Shown piece after piece: positions 316-5,407 of a DNA stretch of 7,413 bases. Both the position numbers and the translations under genes were made by a program. The stretch is from Rhodoferax sp. (GTDB taxonomy: Bacteria > Pseudomonadota > Gammaproteobacteria > Burkholderiales > Burkholderiaceae). The stretch is taken from positions 1 to 7,413 of the forward strand of contig JAIFMT010000059.1 in assembly GCA_020048295.1 (NCBI GenBank), read 5' to 3'. The notes beneath the pieces were generated by a model. It was given only the letters and a program-made list of their open reading frames with translations. It had not been told where the DNA came from and made no database searches. How positions within the stretch are numbered: position 1 is the first letter of the stretch; the number at the start of each line of letters is the position of its first letter.

Positions 316-344
316 GGTGCTTCAGTCATGCAGATAAAAATGAC

Positions 345-378
345 CTGCAGCCCTTTTCTTTGTTGTGTTGGTAGCTAT
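345..378 (-). repeat. Dispersed repeat, copy A (ATAGC-N20-GGGC element)
   Basis: On the minus strand this reads ATAGCT, 19 bases, then GGGCTGCAG. The same spacing recurs at 1220-1253, 3113-3146 and 3818-3846. It sits in the 103-bp gap between the dienelactone hydrolase stop (419) and the flavin oxidoreductase start (315). It is the copy whose left stem arm is most decayed (CTACCAAC), so it would fold poorly. No other feature is seen in the gap. Confidence 0.6.
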
Positions 379-418
379 TGAATCTGCAATATTGAGGGCG
401 GCAGACTGGCGCACCCGG

Positions 419-1111
419 TCAACCCAGATGGCGACCAAAAAAGCGCAGGCAGCGGTCCCAGGCTTGCTGTGCCCACACCGGGTCGTACTGGGTGGCGGGC
501 AGGCGGCCCGGGCCCACCGCAGTTTCGTTGGCAAAGGCGTGGTAGGCCAGGTAGCGGTGAAAGTCAAATGCCACGCCGGCACCGCGCAATTTGTCTTCCA
601 GCGCGTCAATCGTCTCGATCTTGAAAAACTCGTCTTGCGTGCCCCAGTGCGCTTGCAGCGGCACCTTGATCTGGCTGGCATCGATGTATTCCAGCGGCGG
701 GCAACCGTACCAGGCCACGCCGGCATCGGCTTCGGGTGTTTGCGTCAAGGCCAGCAGCGTCAGTGCGCCACCCATGCAAAAGCCGGTCACCCCCACTTTG
801 GGCGCACGGGTTTTCAGGAATTGCACCGCACCGCGAATGTCTTGCGCCGCAGCCTCGCCAAAGTTCAGCGCGTTCATCAGGTGGCTGGCTTCTTCGGCCT
901 CTAGGGTGGAGCTGCCACGGTACAGGTCAGGCACCAGCGCCTGGTAGCCAGCGGCAGCAAAGCGGTCTGCCACCTTGCGAATCTGCTCGTTGAGCCCCCA
1001 CCATTCCTGAATCACCACCACTGCGGGTGCGCCGTCAGCTTGTGCTGGCAAAGCCAGGTAGCCATTGATTGATTGCCCATCCGGGCGCTGGAAACTCACC
1101 ATTGATCCCAT
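419..1111 (-). CDS. Dienelactone hydrolase family protein (alpha/beta hydrolase)
   Basis: The 230-residue product is a full-length dienelactone hydrolase (DLH) family alpha/beta hydrolase, the usual size. Visible catalytic elements are Cys112 in the nucleophile elbow GFCMGG, Asp160 in GTQDEF and His191 in AYHAF, plus Glu36 in QEWWG, the residue that in Pseudomonas DLH activates the cysteine. Genuine DLH hydrolyses dienelactone to maleylacetate in chloroaromatic breakdown, but most family members have unknown ester or lactone substrates, and nothing in this neighbourhood suggests an aromatic pathway. It has no signal peptide, so it is probably cytoplasmic. The start is fixed by AAGGAG at 1119-1124, 7 nt before the ATG at 1111; a second ATG three codons later is less well placed. 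It follows flhC by 155 bp and is probably expressed separately. No resemblance in function to its neighbours is seen. Confidence 0.93.
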   Translation of the reverse strand: MGSMVSFQRPDGQSINGYLALPAQADGAPAVVVIQEWWGLNEQIRKVADRFAAAGYQALVPDLYRGSSTLEAEEASHLMNALNFGEAAAQDIRGAVQFLKTRAPKVGVTGFCMGGALTLLALTQTPEADAGVAWYGCPPLEYIDASQIKVPLQAHWGTQDEFFKIETIDALEDKLRGAGVAFDFHRYLAYHAFANETAVGPGRLPATQYDPVWAQQAWDRCLRFFGRHLG

Positions 1112-1200
1112 GACTGCTCTCCTTGAGGGTTGTTGCCGGCAGTCATGTTACCAAGGCGATGCCAAAGCGCAAACCGACGCGGCTTCGCAAGGCCAGCGAT

Positions 1201-1253
1201 GAATTTATAAGAAATCAGTCTGTAGCCCTTTGGCAGTATGTGCTAACAGCTAT
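1201..1253 (-). repeat. Dispersed repeat, copy B (53 bp, hairpin-forming)
   Basis: This is the best preserved intergenic copy. On the minus strand it starts ATAGCTGTTAGC, carries AAAGGGCTACAG at the fixed distance and ends AATTC, the same 53-bp span as copy C at 3094-3146. CTG(T)TAGC can pair with GCTACAG, giving a 7-bp stem with a one-base bulge. It starts 13 bp beyond the flhC stop codon (1267), between flhC and the dienelactone hydrolase gene. The left end also contains TATAAA (1209-1204 on the minus strand), which could serve as a -10 element for the hydrolase gene, but no convincing -35 is seen. Confidence 0.68.
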
Positions 1254-1266
1254 AAAAACAATTGTC

Positions 1267-1812
1267 TTAGTGCAGCAGAATGCTGCCCGCTGCCGCGCCC
1301 TTGCCAGCGCGTGCCGGCGGCGTGCACAGGCCGCATTCAAAGTGGCGGGCGTTTTCGTAGGGTTCGGTCACAAAATGGCCGCCGCACTTGCTGCACCGGG
1401 TCATGTGCAGCATGTTGGCATCCATGAACTTCACCAGCCGCCAGGCGCGGGTAATGCTCAGCAGCGGCTCGACTCCGCAGGCGGCGATTTGCTCGCTGTA
1501 CAGCTTGTAGGCCTTCATCACTGCGTCGATGTCGTCGAGCGCGCTGACCTTGCTCAGGTATTCATAGGTGTTCATGAACAGCGAGGCGTGGATGTTGGGC
1601 TGCCAGGTCAGAAACCAGTCGGTGGAAAACGGCAGCTGCCCTTTGGACGGCGACTTGCCAGCAACCTCTTTGTACAGCCGCAGCAGCCGCTCGTAAGACA
1701 GGTCGGTTTCGCTTTCCAGCACTTGCAGGCGCGCACCAAGCTGGATCAGCGCCACGGCGCGTTCAACTTGCCGGGAATCATTCAGGACGCTTTTGGTGGA
1801 GGGGGTGGCCAT
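1267..1812 (-). CDS. flhC: Flagellar transcriptional regulator FlhC
   Basis: FlhC is the zinc-binding subunit of the FlhD4C2 master activator, which switches on class 2 flagellar promoters with sigma-70. The 181-residue sequence matches E. coli FlhC over its length: LGARLQVLESETDLSYERL (about 25-43), LPFSTDWFLTW (60-70), NIHASLFMN (73-81), TRAWRLVKFM (121-130). The four zinc-ligand cysteines are present as Cys140, Cys143, Cys160 and Cys163 in CSKCGG and CGLC. It is about 11 residues shorter than the E. coli protein, lacking part of the C-terminal tail. AAAGGA (1820-1825) lies 7 nt upstream of the ATG and overlaps the flhD stop codon, so translation is probably coupled to flhD; the gap is 11 nt. 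Odd context: no motAB or other motility gene follows. Instead comes a dispersed repeat and an unrelated hydrolase. Confidence 0.97.
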   Translation of the reverse strand: MATPSTKSVLNDSRQVERAVALIQLGARLQVLESETDLSYERLLRLYKEVAGKSPSKGQLPFSTDWFLTWQPNIHASLFMNTYEYLSKVSALDDIDAVMKAYKLYSEQIAACGVEPLLSITRAWRLVKFMDANMLHMTRCSKCGGHFVTEPYENARHFECGLCTPPARAGKGAAAGSILLH

Positions 1813-1823
1813 GATGATTTCCT

Positions 1824-2150
1824 TTAGGCGAGGGTGGCAAAACGTTGGCTGAACTGCGGGCCGGTGCGCAGCGGGGCGCTGTCAGGCACATCGCTGCGTG
1901 GGGTGGTGTGGCTGGTGAGCAGACCCCACACCATCTCGTCATCCACCCGCATGCGGCACAGCAGCACCGGGCTGCTGGCAATGTTGAGCATTTGCGCCGC
2001 TGACAGCCGGGCAATCAGCTCGGCAGACTCCTGGCCAATGCCAAATCGGGCCAGCGCTTGCTGGGGGTCGCGGCGAATGGCGTTTTGCGCCAGCATCAGA
2101 AAACTCAGATTGGCATCGCGGATGTCGTTGCTGATTTGGTCGTTGCGCAT
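1824..2150 (-). CDS. flhD: Flagellar transcriptional regulator FlhD
   Basis: FlhD is the partner of FlhC in the flagellar master regulator complex. The 108-residue product aligns without gaps to the first 70 residues of E. coli FlhD: DANLSFLMLAQ (12-22), ALARFGIGQE (32-41), LSAAQMLNIA (49-58). Cys65 sits at the same position as the E. coli residue that forms the inter-subunit disulfide. The rest diverges, which is normal between beta- and gammaproteobacteria. The reading frame is open upstream to 2306, but AGGAG at 2157-2161, 6 nt before the ATG at 2150, and the homology start both favour this shorter form. It lies 11 nt upstream of flhC, and a 177-bp region rich in inverted repeats lies upstream. 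Confidence in identity is high. Confidence 0.96.
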   Translation of the reverse strand: MRNDQISNDIRDANLSFLMLAQNAIRRDPQQALARFGIGQESAELIARLSAAQMLNIASSPVLLCRMRVDDEMVWGLLTSHTTPRSDVPDSAPLRTGPQFSQRFATLA

Positions 2151-2156
2151 GCTGGG

Positions 2157-2161
2157 CTCCT
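2157..2161 (-). promoter_or_regulatory. Ribosome binding site that decides the flhD start
   Basis: AGGAG on the minus strand, 6 nt before the ATG at 2150. It supports the 108-residue FlhD over a 160-residue reading that would start at 2306 and has no homology in its first 52 residues. Confidence 0.8.
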
Positions 2162-2170
2162 GGGGTGATT

Positions 2171-2206
2171 CGGTGAATTGGGGGGTGATTACCGGCCAAT
2201 TCGCCG
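2171..2206 (-). promoter_or_regulatory. Inverted repeat in the flhD leader (11-bp arms, 14-nt loop)
   Basis: Arms are at 2171-2181 and 2196-2206, complementary at 10 of 11 positions. In an flhDC transcript this would form a hairpin ending about 10 nt before the AGGAG site; as DNA it could be a dimeric operator. The single mismatch would be A-C in the flhDC mRNA and G-U on the other strand. The loop and left arm also carry three AATCACC-like words (minus strand; plus strand 2164-2170, 2172-2179, 2184-2190). Function is inferred only from position. Confidence 0.5.
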
Positions 2207-2254
2207 CTTCAACCCCATGGCCCGAATTTTGGAAGCGTTGCGCAAGAACTTGAA

Positions 2255-2287
2255 TCAGCGTTTGGCTGCACCGCGTGTCAGCGTTTG
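2255..2287 (-). repeat. Direct repeat of a 10-bp word upstream of flhDC
   Basis: CAAACGCTGA (minus strand) occurs at 2255-2264 and again at 2278-2287, 23 bp apart, close to two helical turns. The second copy is also the inner part of one arm of the inverted repeat at 2276-2315, so three related half-sites are arrayed here. This looks like a multi-site operator, but no known regulator motif is recognised. Confidence 0.45.
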
Positions 2288-2315
2288 CTGCCGCCTTGTA
2301 GGGCAAATGCTGACA
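2276..2315. promoter_or_regulatory. Long inverted repeat between the amidase gene and flhD (13-bp arms, 14-nt loop)
   Basis: Arms TGTCAGCGTTTGC (2276-2288) and GCAAATGCTGACA (2303-2315) are complementary at 12 of 13 positions. It begins 12 bp past the amidase stop codon and about 125 bp before the flhD ATG. No run of T follows on either strand, so a standard intrinsic terminator is not supported. It may be an mRNA 3'-end hairpin for the amidase transcript or an operator for flhDC. Confidence 0.5.
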
Positions 2316-2327
2316 AGGGCGACCCGC

Positions 2328-3752
2328 TCAGGTACTGCGGCTGCGTGCCTGGGGTGGGTTGAGGGAGAAATAGCGTTCGATGCCGCGCATCAGGGCATCG
2401 GCGAGCTTTTCCTGGTAGTCGTCGCTGTTGAGGCGCGCCTCTTCTTCGGGGTTGCTGATGAAGGCGGCTTCGACCAGCACGCTGGGTATGTCGGGGGCCT
2501 TGAGCACGGCAAACGAGGCCTGTTCCACACGGGCCTTGTGCAGCTTGCCCACGCGTTTGATCTCGCCGAGCATGGCACCACCGAGCTTCAAGCTGTCCTT
2601 GATCTGCGCGGTGGTGCTCATGTCGAGCAGGGCGCGGGTCACCTGCACATCTTTGGCTTTGACGTTCAGGCCGCCAATCAGGTCAGCCTTGTTTTCCTTG
2701 GCAGCCATCCAGCGCGCTGCGGTGCTGGAGGCACCGCCCTGGCTCAGCGCAAACACGCTGGCACCCTGCGGATGAGGGGTAAAAAAGGCATCGGCGTGCA
2801 GACTGATGAACAGATCGGCCTGCACCCGCCGCGCTTTTTCTACCCGGGTGTGCAGCGGCACAAAAAAATCTGCGTCGCGCGTCAGAAAAGCACGCATCGG
2901 GTTGCCGTTGACCGAGGCCGCATTGATCCGCGCGCGCAGCCGGTGGGCCAGGCGCAGCACGACCGTTTTTTCATAAGTGCCAGCGGGACCGATGGCGCCG
3001 GGATCTTCGCCGCCGTGGCCGGGGTCGAGCGCGATGATGATCAGCCGGTCGGTTGCCGCAGGCGGCGTGGCGGTCATGCTGGGTGACTGCGGTGAATTGA
3101 TGCTTTTCTGGGCTGTAGCCCTTTCTGGCGTTGCGCTATCAGCTATATTAACAGTAGCTGTCTGGGGTGGGCTGGCGGCTGGCTGGGCTGGGGCAGCGGC
3201 ACTGGCAGGGCTGGCTTTTTCAGCTTTTTGTGCAATCAGCTCGCCCAGCGGGTCGGCGCTTGGCGCTGCATGGGCACTGGCGGGCGGGTGGGTGGCCTCT
3301 TTCAGCCGCTCGGCAATCAGCGTCGCCAGCGGGTCGGCTGCCACGGCGGGGTACAGGTCAAACACCAGCCGGTGCCGGTAGGCGGCCACCGGTGGCAGCG
3401 TGAACACTTGCGGTGCCACCGGTTGTTTCAGGTCCACCACCAGCCGCACGATGCCCGGACCAAACTGGCCGACGCGGATGCCGTTGATGGTGGGGTCGGT
3501 CGGGCCCACCTTGGCCACCAGCTCTTTGAGCGCCGGGTTGAGCGCAATGCCACGCACGTCCACCGCCAACCGTGGCGGGTTGGGCACAAAGTTTTGTGTA
3601 AAGGTCAGTTGCGCGTCCGACTCGATGGTGACACGTGAATAGTCTTGTGCCGGCCACACCCGCACTGCCACAATGCTGGCCCCGCGTGCCAGCTGCTGGG
3701 TGCCCAGCAGCAGCACGATGGCACCGCTTTGCACAAAATTGCGGCGTTTCAT
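2328..3752 (-). CDS. amiC: N-acetylmuramoyl-L-alanine amidase, AmiC type (AMIN + Amidase_3)
   Basis: This periplasmic zinc amidase removes the stem peptide from N-acetylmuramic acid, chiefly to split septal peptidoglycan in cell separation. The 474 residues show a twin-arginine-like signal (KRRNFV at 2-7, hydrophobic 10-23, likely cut after about Ala25), an AMIN domain (about 27-135), a low-complexity Ala/Pro linker (about 137-232) and an Amidase_3 domain (about 236-465). Zinc ligands are His246 (DPGHGG), Glu261 and His319 (SLHAD); catalytic Glu428 is in VEAAF. The insert around 350-403 corresponds to the regulatory helix of AmiA/B/C enzymes that waits for EnvC- or NlpD-like activators. There is no LysM domain, so AmiC-like rather than AmiB-like. 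The ATG overlaps the tsaE stop (ATGA), implying coupling. Odd: the linker holds a dispersed DNA repeat (residues 203-214) and an internal duplication (139-153 and 166-180). Confidence 0.95.
   Translation of the reverse strand: MKRRNFVQSGAIVLLLGTQQLARGASIVAVRVWPAQDYSRVTIESDAQLTFTQNFVPNPPRLAVDVRGIALNPALKELVAKVGPTDPTINGIRVGQFGPGIVRLVVDLKQPVAPQVFTLPPVAAYRHRLVFDLYPAVAADPLATLIAERLKEATHPPASAHAAPSADPLGELIAQKAEKASPASAAAPAQPAASPPQTATVNIADSATPERATAQKSINSPQSPSMTATPPAATDRLIIIALDPGHGGEDPGAIGPAGTYEKTVVLRLAHRLRARINAASVNGNPMRAFLTRDADFFVPLHTRVEKARRVQADLFISLHADAFFTPHPQGASVFALSQGGASSTAARWMAAKENKADLIGGLNVKAKDVQVTRALLDMSTTAQIKDSLKLGGAMLGEIKRVGKLHKARVEQASFAVLKAPDIPSVLVEAAFISNPEEEARLNSDDYQEKLADALMRGIERYFSLNPPQARSRST
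3094..3146 (-). repeat. Dispersed repeat, copy C, in frame inside the amidase linker
   Basis: Minus strand ATAGCTGATAGC, then AAAGGGCTACAG at the fixed distance and AATTC at the end, matching copy B at about 25 of 34 core positions and with the same 53-bp span. CTG(A)TAGC and GCTACAG form a 7-bp stem with a one-base bulge at the same place as in copy B. It is translated as part of the amidase linker, core residues 203-214 (IADSATPERATA). Confidence 0.62.
3232..3338 (-). repeat. Internal 81-bp-period duplication in the amidase linker
   Basis: Near-identical DNA occurs at 3232-3257 and 3313-3338 (GCAATCAGC, then CGGGTCGGC on the plus strand), exactly 81 bp apart. It encodes ADPLATLIAERLKEA (139-153) and ADPLGELIAQKAEKA (166-180), period 27 residues. 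The copies are probably short amphipathic helices separated by Ala/Pro-rich spacer. Confidence 0.7.
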
Positions 3753-4330
3753 GGCGCCACCCCGCTGCTGGCGCTGGCCAGATTGCTTTCAGAATTTACA
3801 AGACGATTGGCACTCGGGCCCACGTCCATTAATGGGTTACTGCTATGAATAGCGGAAAGTAGCGTGAGCCCGACGGGCGTTTGCGCCGTCAACGTGACGT
3901 GGCGCGCCGCCTCGTCGATCAGCGTCAGCTGCAGCACCAGATCAGCCAGCGGCAACTGACCCGCAGCCTTGTCGGGCCACTCGGCGAGTTTCAGCCCCGG
4001 GCTGGCAAAGATGTCACGAAAACCGGCATCCTCCCACTCGCGCGGGTCATTGAAACGGTAAAAGTCAAAGTGCCACGCCGACCAGCCGGGCAATTCGTAG
4101 GGCTCCACCACCGCATAGGTCGGGCTTTTGATGCGCCCTGGCACCCCCAGGGCGCGCAGCAGGTGGCGCACCAGCGTGGTTTTGCCGGCACCCAGATCAC
4201 CGCGCAGCGCAATAAACGCCTGGCGCAGTGCGGGGCAGGCCGCCAGTGCTGTGGCAAGCTGCTGTGTCGCTGCTTCGTTAGGCCAGACAGCGGTTTTTAC
4301 AATGGGCAGGTGAACAGTTTCAGCACACAT
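3749..4330 (-). CDS. tsaE: tRNA threonylcarbamoyladenosine biosynthesis ATPase TsaE, with C-terminal extension
   Basis: TsaE (YjeE) is the ATPase that works with TsaB and TsaD to make t6A37 on ANN-decoding tRNAs. With the ATG at 4330 it is 193 residues. Walker A is GDLGAGKTT (44-52); further family blocks are KSPTYAVVEPYE (68-79), HFDFYR (87-92) and AEWPDKA (116-122). Family members are usually about 150-160 residues; the excess is a tail from about 157 to 193, of low conservation, that contains dispersed-repeat copy D. A longer reading from TTG at 4393 is possible but unlikely, since no homology supports it. There is no clear ribosome binding site before the ATG. The stop overlaps the amidase ATG by 4 nt. 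Its 5' end overlaps the divergent queG by 21 bp as called here. The tsaE-amidase pairing is widely conserved in proteobacteria. Confidence 0.94.
   Translation of the reverse strand: MCAETVHLPIVKTAVWPNEAATQQLATALAACPALRQAFIALRGDLGAGKTTLVRHLLRALGVPGRIKSPTYAVVEPYELPGWSAWHFDFYRFNDPREWEDAGFRDIFASPGLKLAEWPDKAAGQLPLADLVLQLTLIDEAARHVTLTAQTPVGLTLLSAIHSSNPLMDVGPSANRLVNSESNLASASSGVAP
3792..3846 (-). repeat. Probable dispersed repeat, degenerate copy D, in the tsaE 3' end
   Basis: Minus strand ATAGC (3846-3842), exactly 20 bases, then GGGC (3821-3818), the spacing of copies A-C. It then ends in TGTAAATTC where copy B has TATAAATTC, two bases further out. Interior identity is low, so this copy is tentative. 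It would encode TsaE residues of about 162-180 in the extra C-terminal tail. Confidence 0.4.
4298..4303 (+). promoter_or_regulatory. Possible -10 element for queG
   Basis: TACAAT matches the sigma-70 -10 consensus at five of six positions and ends 6 bp before the GTG called as the queG start. The -35 at 17-18 bp spacing (around 4274-4280) is poor. If used, transcription would begin at about 4310, giving a leaderless queG mRNA. Confidence 0.25.
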
Positions 4331-5407
4331 AAGGATGGCGGTGAATGGGTCTCCAGAATACAGGACTGGGGGCAGGCGTTGGGATTTTCCCAAATCGGCA
4401 TCGCCGGGGTGGATCTGGCCAGCGCAGAGCCCGGATTATCCGCATGGCTGGCGCAGGGTTTTCACGGCGACATGGCGTACATGGCCGCGCACGGGCTCAA
4501 ACGCGCCCGGCCGGCCGAACTGCTGCCCGGCACCGTCAGCGTGATTACCGCGCGCATGGATTACTTGCCTGCCGGCACGCCAGACGACTGGCAGGCGGTT
4601 GAGCTGGCGCGGCTGCAGCGGCCATCGCAGGCCATCGTGTCGCTCTACGCCCGGGGCCGCGACTACCACAAGGTGCTGCGCAGCCGGCTGCAGCGCCTGA
4701 GCGAGCGCATTGCCACCGAGCTGACACCGCTGGGCGCACGCGTGTTTTGCGACTCGGCTCCGGTGCTCGAAGTCGAGCTGGCCAGCCGCAGCGGCCTGGG
4801 CTGGCGCGGCAAACACACGCTGCTGCTCAGCCGCGAGGCGGGCTCGATGTTTTTCCTGGGCGAGATTTTTGTCAATGTGGCGCTGCCGCCCAGCGCACCC
4901 CAGGCCAGCCACTGCGGCCGCTGCAGCGCCTGTATCGACGTGTGCCCGACGCAGGCCATCGTGTCCGCGTACCAGCTGGACGCGCGGCGTTGCATTTCGT
5001 ACCTGACCATTGAACACGCCGGGCCGATACCCGTGGCGCTGCGCCCATTGATGGGCAACCGCATCTATGGTTGTGACGATTGCCAGCTGATTTGCCCGTG
5101 GAACAAGTTTGCCCGGCGCAGCGCCTTGTCGGATTTTGCGCCGCGTGCCGGGCTGACCGACAGCCTTCTGGCCGACCTGTTTGGCTGGACCGAAGAAGAA
5201 TTCTTGCGCTTCAGCGAAGGCAGCCCGATCCGGCGCATTGGCCATGAGCGCTGGCTGCGCAACATCGCCGTGGCGCTGGGCAATGCCGTGCGCGTGACCC
5301 CGCCTGGCCCAATTCAGCAACCTTTGCTCGACGCTTTGCACAGCCGCGTAGCGCACCCCAGTGCGTTGGTGCGCGAGCACGTGCAATGGGCGTTGGCGCA
5401 AGCATGA
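4310..5407 (+). CDS. queG: Epoxyqueuosine reductase QueG
   Basis: QueG is the cobalamin and iron-sulfur enzyme that reduces epoxyqueuosine to queuosine at position 34 of GUN tRNAs, in the cytoplasm. From GTG 4310 it has 365 residues (E. coli 379). Visible: YARGRDYHKVL (113-123), CDSAP with the likely catalytic Asp148, GLGWRGKHTLLLSREAGS (162-179), and two 4Fe-4S motifs. Their cysteines are 202, 205, 208, 212 and 228, 255, 258, 262 (CGRCSACIDVCP and YGCDDCQLICPW). A HEAT-like C-terminal part includes IRRIGHERWLRNIAVALGN (307-325). The start is uncertain: homology requires one upstream of residue 17, and GTG 4310 is the only near in-frame standard start; it lacks a ribosome binding site. AAGGA at 4331-4335 fits no in-frame start codon. 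It is divergent from tsaE, as tRNA-modification neighbours. Confidence 0.95.
   Translation: MNSFSTHKDGGEWVSRIQDWGQALGFSQIGIAGVDLASAEPGLSAWLAQGFHGDMAYMAAHGLKRARPAELLPGTVSVITARMDYLPAGTPDDWQAVELARLQRPSQAIVSLYARGRDYHKVLRSRLQRLSERIATELTPLGARVFCDSAPVLEVELASRSGLGWRGKHTLLLSREAGSMFFLGEIFVNVALPPSAPQASHCGRCSACIDVCPTQAIVSAYQLDARRCISYLTIEHAGPIPVALRPLMGNRIYGCDDCQLICPWNKFARRSALSDFAPRAGLTDSLLADLFGWTEEEFLRFSEGSPIRRIGHERWLRNIAVALGNAVRVTPPGPIQQPLLDALHSRVAHPSALVREHVQWALAQA

Follow-up and report, generated by a model that had tools for sequence, protein, structure and literature searches.

A short dispersed repeat of Comamonadaceae genomes and its association with a RAYT-like gene

What is a short sequence doing when it recurs, always on one strand, between and inside unrelated genes of a bacterial chromosome? 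The question is raised by a 7,413-nt contig of Rhodoferax sp. (JAIFMT010000059.1, assembly GCA_020048295.1; hereafter the window), which looks like a stretch of Comamonadaceae chromosome and for which a preliminary description had proposed four copies of a non-autonomous mobile or hairpin element. We give a probability of roughly 70% to the reading that these copies belong to a Comamonadaceae family resembling repetitive extragenic palindromic (REP) sequences, tied to a Y1 (HuH) gene of the REP-associated tyrosine transposase (RAYT) type, which was spread by the RAYT formerly and is now largely static. Genome-wide statements rest on the genomes of relatives, the window itself comprising 7,413 nt only.

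Copies in the window and the shape of the unit

The window contains exactly four matches to the pattern ATAGC-N20-GGGC, each of them on the minus strand and at a place noted previously. The count is far above that of shuffled sequence, as 200 dinucleotide shuffles of the window gave a mean of 0.04 matches and never four. We also scanned the window with a sequence-only profile, R1, whose 59 rows comprise 57 from other genomes plus window copies B and C, so that B and C match it partly by construction; A and D are outside its rows. Nothing besides A, B and C scored above 3 bits. The copies and the two genes that host C and D are listed below.

331–391, minus strand: copy A, degenerate, intergenic (dienelactone-hydrolase and luciferase-like genes); R1 23.7 bits, E 2e-7; ATAG foot at 375–378
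1202–1267, minus strand: copy B, intergenic, downstream of flhC; R1 50.4 bits, E 9e-16; ATAG foot at 1250–1253, hairpin arms at about 1238–1245 and 1223–1230
3096–3160, minus strand: copy C, in frame inside amiC, in the linker between AMIN and Amidase_3; R1 43.1 bits, E 2e-13; ATAG foot at 3143–3146, hairpin arms at about 3131–3138 and 3116–3123
3794–3863, minus strand: copy D, apparently decayed, in the C-terminal extension of tsaE; core ATAGC..GGGC at 3818–3846; log-odds -11.5
2328–3752, minus strand: amiC (AMIN and Amidase_3; Pfam PF11741, PF01520), host of copy C
3749–4393, minus strand: tsaE (Pfam PF02367), host of copy D

Three of the four proposed copies are thus clear by profile, while D falls below it. 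Copy D nevertheless looks like a worn member of the family, because the corresponding part of tsaE holds a recognisable copy in several relatives (L059, L060, L062, L066, L067, L069, L070 and L071, scoring 10–30); the stretch CTTGTAAATTCTG is common to the window and L070. An Rfam search of the window returned seven matches up to E 5, none of them overlapping A, B, C or D.

The exact core pattern was found in 58 stretches of a one-genome-per-species collection, with titles naming Rhodoferax, Polaromonas, Acidovorax, Simplicispira, Giesbergeria, Comamonas, Comamonadaceae, or an unnamed beta-, gamma- or Burkholderiaceae bacterium. A gapless alignment of 59 copies is conserved from about -15 to +52 around ATAGC and drops to background beyond, which makes the unit about 65 bp long instead of the 53 bp initially proposed. 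It consists of an RTAG foot, an imperfect hairpin and AT-rich flanks, and its consensus runs TGCTAY-n-AAATTT-n, RTAGC, the hairpin TAGCSCTT-N7-AAGSGCTA, nAGGC, ATTT, C and an A-run. The AATTC thought to lie at a fixed distance is not consensus at 48–52. The foot is RTAG in 305 of 369 copies, mostly ATAG, and a CT stands at -11/-10 in 64% of copies.

A hairpin is part of the consensus, yet it is TAGCSCTT/AAGSGCTA and not the 7-bp stem CTG-N-TAGC/GCTACAG drawn at first. The inner pairs are common to both, whereas the outer pair 6/31 pairs in only 31% of the 369 copies, and we reject the 7-bp stem as the family's conserved structure. Compensation is seen at one pair, 12/26, and between genera: it is mostly C-G in G023, G043, G052 and G001, mostly G-C in Simplicispira (11/19) and Acidovorax (13/18), and divided in G025; in the remaining sampled genomes G.G predominates. 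By reading, foot position 0 has no covariation with position -8.

Abundance, placement and the linked gene

A weight matrix refined on 328 copies was run on stretches of three Rhodoferax-group genomes (G023, G043 and G052, also used in the comparisons below) and found 88, 61 and 84 copies in 400, 285 and 400 kb, or about 21–22 per 100 kb, which extrapolates to some 900–1000 copies per genome. The reversed sequence of the same genomes gave no copies at the same threshold. Together with the shuffles and the R1 E-values, this leads us to reject a chance origin of the repeats; the refuting outcome named at the outset, a lack of excess over shuffled sequence, clearly does not occur. In 80-kb samples, Simplicispira, Acidovorax, two Polaromonas and four other genomes were rich as well, so that with the Rhodoferax-group genomes included 11 of 13 sampled Comamonadaceae genomes hold 18.8–25.0 copies per 100 kb; the sample of Comamonas composti holds 6.2 per 100 kb. 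Iterated profiles made per genome gave one hit each in reversed Acidovorax and reversed Polaromonas sequence. The earlier suggestion of a non-autonomous dispersed repeat common in Comamonadaceae is therefore borne out by the high copy number in 11 of 13 samples and by the 58 core stretches. One sample, G024:C2 1000001–1080000, had no copies by the refined matrix, yet that genome has 46 genome-wide R1 hits among the matches listed, a discrepancy that may reflect uneven density or a diverged subfamily. Across a genus set of 89 genomes, where R1 counts are at-least values among the matches listed under stricter filters, 40 genomes have at least 20 R1 hits and 39 have 0–5. Plasmids yielded two weak repeat matches only.

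A codon-trained gene caller misses tsaE in the window, and counts by gene context are approximate. With that limit, the copies of four genomes are mostly intergenic (51/88, 32/61, 46/87 and 48/90, against 12–21% non-coding DNA), and gaps between convergent genes hold 0.57–0.86 copies each, compared with 0.22–0.28 for tandem and 0.07–0.20 for divergent gaps. Such frequent placement at gene ends and between convergent genes, with a hairpin in the consensus, is what would be expected of a terminator or other RNA element amplified by convergence. However, 41–46% of copies lie inside predicted genes in both orientations, and the window copies fold into the consensus hairpin no better than shuffles under DNA parameters. 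Nor is an orientation bias clear from plus and minus strands in three genomes (51/37, 27/34 and 53/31) or from sense and antisense copies within genes (15/21, 10/17 and 16/20), so that the alignment of all copies with transcription that had been noted describes the window and not the family. We find the terminator explanation scarcely credible.

The copies are solitary. Only 9 of 322 neighbouring pairs lie within 400 bp (6 in the same orientation, 3 divergent), against 31.6 expected at random. Under a null of one copy per gap most of the spacing effect vanishes (P 0.25 for the coefficient of variation), and a slight deficit below 500 bp remains (11 against 20.5, P 0.015). No clustering appeared under three null models, and inverted pairs or clusters of the REPIN or BIME kind were not found.

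Some copies lie inside proteins. In amiC the unit forms an in-frame insert in the linker; L080, L081, L084 and L086 have an AmiC that is shorter by 23 codons than that of L083. The tsaE copies of relatives occupy the C-terminal extension, where window copy D also lies. In L070 (G022:C84) the AmiC linker additionally shows an expansion of Ala-Ser dipeptides, located upstream of the insert.

The link to a transposase-like gene comes from the gene's own end. We searched 12 genomes with PF01797, which also picks up IS200-like copies and fragments, and in all 12 there is a Y1 gene of 229–234 aa with a repeat copy antisense to it, overlapping or adjoining the stop codon. This copy scores at least 25 in 10 of the 12, the two weak ones both being from Polaromonas (12.8 and 9.2), and two of the 12 genomes have an additional copy upstream of the gene. 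Among ordinary genes, only 4–9% have an antisense copy near the stop. Other Y1 loci (L144–L147 and L162–L164) carry no repeat copy, and neither does L161, a second, distinct Y1 gene of G002. This gene, at L161 1462–2154 (G002:C17) of Rhodoferax antarcticus, is a RAYT-like gene about 44% identical to the first, and has an end of the GGGGTCAGGCTCGAATTAAA type on its upstream side.

In the genus set, 77 of the 89 genomes match the RAYT protein. Leaving out partial and distant matches, a full orthologue is present in 37 of the 40 rich genomes (at least 20 R1 hits listed). The gene end was scored in 30 genomes, the best 30 of the 77 RAYT matches, by a weight matrix that was trained on rich genomes: of the 20 repeat-rich genomes 17 have a gene-end element scoring at least 25, and of the 10 repeat-poor ones none does (G060 scores 15.1). 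The rich genomes with a gene-end element below 25 are G055, G056 and G093.

Several features bear on the identity of the protein. Two orthologues score 77.2 and 83.2 bits against NCBIfam REP_Tyr_transpos (cut-off 80), one matches PDB 4er8 (TnpArep) at E 8e-5, and names in the best 120 of 7999 homologues include 'REP-associated tyrosine transposase'. Among 42 loci of 36 genomes, NHFH and WSS are each present in 40 and Y[IML]DLNP in all 42; a strict GGGGWSAS follows the stop by no more than about 110 bp in 38, precedes the gene by up to 150 bp in 16 and stands on both sides in 14. A helix-turn-helix (HTH) domain in the long C-terminal extension was not found with Pfam at E up to 1. The gene likely most resembles subclass 2.1, that is RAYT group 1 or TIRYT, because its length, its HuH and SS motifs and GGGGWSAS fit. 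The RAYT groups were reportedly defined by Bertels et al. in 2017.

A short, dispersed, non-coding unit with in-frame inserts in genes could also be a miniature inverted-repeat transposable element (MITE), or another miniature element, of an unrelated transposase. By reading, however, the ends of the consensus are not inverted repeats of each other, and the element sits at the end of the RAYT gene. We consider this origin very unlikely.

Age, constraint and probable loss

Under the reading of a RAYT-spread family, the RAYT would recognise the RTAG foot and the imperfect hairpin on single-stranded DNA, with a possible cut at a CT, for instance the one at -11/-10. In ancestral genomes the unit would have been carried to gene ends, to intergenic gaps and to protein linkers that tolerate it. 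Amplification would be largely over, the present copies being old and vertically inherited; selection may hold the consensus, and at least one Rhodoferax lineage has seemingly lost nearly all copies.

A number of observations weigh against this reading. The foot is GTAG in only 50 of 369 copies, and CT occurs at other fixed core positions as well. In pooled copies compensatory changes are in excess at pair 12/26 (z about 3) and, to a slight degree, at 9/29 (z 2.3), but at no other pair, and pairings shifted by 1–2 bases give similar z at some positions. Folding as single-stranded DNA gives copies A, B and D no advantage over shuffles, and C, which has one, adopts a structure other than the consensus hairpin. 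Two partial or IS200-type Y1 loci of G005 (L156 and L160) have a copy elsewhere in the locus, and the full RAYT orthologue is kept in 37 of the 49 repeat-poor genomes. The sets of 12 and 30 genomes overlap and contain kin, so that their counts are not independent events. Copies hardly differ in position between close relatives. Counting sites with both flanks aligned, 53/56, 39/40 and 28/28 are shared among the three genomes, at 91.7–93.6% identity, and 11/11, 10/10 and 18/21 are shared with G002, which is about 79% identical to G023. Clean empty sites were scarce among close relatives, and the comparisons yielded no resolved junction. Recent transposition has no support between genomes at 91.7–93.6% identity, and presence of the RAYT alone is a weak candidate for an abundance switch (37/40 rich against 37/49 poor genomes, Fisher p 0.046).

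The site comparisons are subsets: for the 88 copies in G023, no comparison was possible at 32 in G043, 48 in G052 and 77 in G002, mostly through lack of alignable flanks in the stretches compared. Most unshared sites among the three genomes have a gap of 70–71 bp between the flanks, the place being filled by a copy that goes unrecognised; at one site G043 is 54 bp shorter than G052, and one gap measures 860 bp. Polymorphism of occupied and empty sites, suggested at the outset as a check on mobility, is thus nearly absent among close relatives but seen across the genus. The term mobile is accordingly pointed to only indirectly, by the linked RAYT-like gene and by the in-frame presence or absence of the unit in amiC and tsaE across the genus, with near-total sharing among close relatives on the other side.

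If copies stay in place, what holds them? A functional protein-binding site under selection, for a nucleoid, gyrase or RNA-end factor, is an alternative in which any spread by a transposase would be a side effect or belong to the distant past, and the RAYT gene would simply be the bearer of one of the sites. In orthologous copies of G023 and G043, high-information positions differ at 61/1188 (5.1%) and low-information positions at 116/924 (Fisher p 1.7e-9), comparable sites retain their copies in genomes about 79% identical, and the copies are solitary and favour convergent over divergent gaps, all of which fits such a site. However, the flanks differ at 248/3960 (6.3%), so that the consensus is kept better than the rest of the unit and only slightly better than its surroundings. 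Homogenisation between copies may contribute. A binding site would also leave the link to the RAYT gene end unexplained and has to accommodate six sampled genomes of one Rhodoferax subclade with 0–1 hits each. We think it improbable.

The genomes of that subclade (L077, L080, L081, L084, L086 and L088) have no amiC or tsaE inserts, and three of the six keep the RAYT gene. In an AmiC–TsaE tree of 28 rows, eight of them with 0–5 hits, rooted at the midpoint, the poor clade of six is nested among rich, occupied rows (fork 100/98; 3 changes in all). Since the poor clade is nested in this way and other genera are rich, loss is favoured over original absence, which suggests that this subclade lost nearly all its copies. 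A further proposal, which we put forward tentatively and hold to be doubtful, is that a group 1 (TIRYT-type) RAYT was domesticated with about 900 solitary sites per genome; these would be held over about 20% divergence by selection as sites organising the chromosome or gene ends, bound by the RAYT or another factor, and could be purged wholesale in some lineages.

With regard to its surroundings, the window holds in order the end of a luciferase-like gene, dienelactone hydrolase, flhC, flhD, amiC, tsaE, queG, an enolase-superfamily gene and an AstE/AspA-type gene. The best matches of the amiC-tsaE-queG part are Rhodoferax-group genomes, at 75–78% DNA identity. In the window flhCD (1267–2281) lies close to amiC, and in G001, G002 and G023 the flhDC match is far away or on another contig; the flhCD/amiC block is rearranged between the window and these relatives.

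Relation to known repeat systems

A motif of Polaromonas naphthalenivorans, ATAGCT(N)22CAAAAG, was published in 2017 with 125 copies and an unknown role; 101 of the 125 are intergenic, 34 lie between convergent genes and 18 in genes, and R. ferrireducens T118 topped that survey in motif pairs (PMC5217627). The repeat described here has ATAGCT at 0–5 and the C-A-AG letters at 28–33 with the exact spacing, so the family is probably partly in print as this motif, an identity we infer from spacing. The exact motif has no instances in the Comamonadaceae loci compared and no plasmid match. As far as its description goes, it differs in being a motif pair in one genome, without a unit or a link to a transposase (PMC5217627). 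In open-licence literature we found no paper linking the Comamonadaceae family to a RAYT.

Two other families share part of the picture. BRE is likewise dispersed in Bordetella and Comamonadaceae with some copies in genes, but by its published description it is about 90 bp long, 69% GC in Bordetella and sometimes tandem, with copy numbers of 29 at most and of 4 in R. ferrireducens T118 (PMC3110155). Rickettsia palindromic elements also insert into unrelated protein-coding genes; they differ in being CGTC-tagged, and CGTC repeats are described as having no transposase link (PMC3733652).

The REPtrons of E. coli, Stenotrophomonas and Marinomonas, in which the RAYT recognises a foot and hairpin on single-stranded DNA (PMC8266576), provide a published model for the proposed mechanism. 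Like the GTAG REPs, whose hairpin has the tetranucleotide GT[AG]G at its 5' foot, the Comamonadaceae repeat is a short hairpin with a TAG foot, present in hundreds of mostly extragenic copies with some in genes, and linked to a Y1 RAYT. In contrast, its foot is mostly ATAG, its unit is about 65 bp instead of 20–40, it has conserved AT-rich flanks, its copies do not form inverted pairs or clusters, and its partner resembles RAYT group 1 (PMC3733652, PMC8266576).

Subclass 2.1 corresponds to RAYT group 1, largely TIRYTs (PMC6006769, PMC3733652), and according to Quentin et al. (2018; PMC6006769) automatic and manual searches recovered no REP-like sequences with it. The family may therefore be a candidate repeat partner, at very high copy number, for a subclass of domesticated transposases previously without one, and in a well-sampled bacterial family. 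With its uneven abundance and positional conservation, it is a natural system for testing why REP-like sequences are kept by bacteria, through direct comparison of related lineages that are rich and poor in the repeat. Subclass 2.1 proteins are described as having about 238 aa, NH[YF]H, YIELNP or Y[IV]HLNP and an SS motif, while YVDLNP is given for subclass 2.3, of about 325 aa (PMC6006769); group 1 genes have flanking inverted repeats with GGGGWSAS and a C-terminal HTH-like domain (PMC6006769, PMC3733652). The Comamonadaceae gene agrees in its Y1 protein of about 234 aa, NHFH, WSS and GGGGWSAS beyond the stop at 38 of 42 loci, and departs in its tyrosine motif Y[IML]DLNP, one letter off YIELNP, and in having GGGGWSAS upstream at only 16 of 42. 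In TIRtrons the terminal inverted repeats (TIRs) themselves form moderately abundant dispersed families (PMC3733652), whereas in Comamonadaceae the dispersed unit is a subterminal hairpin.

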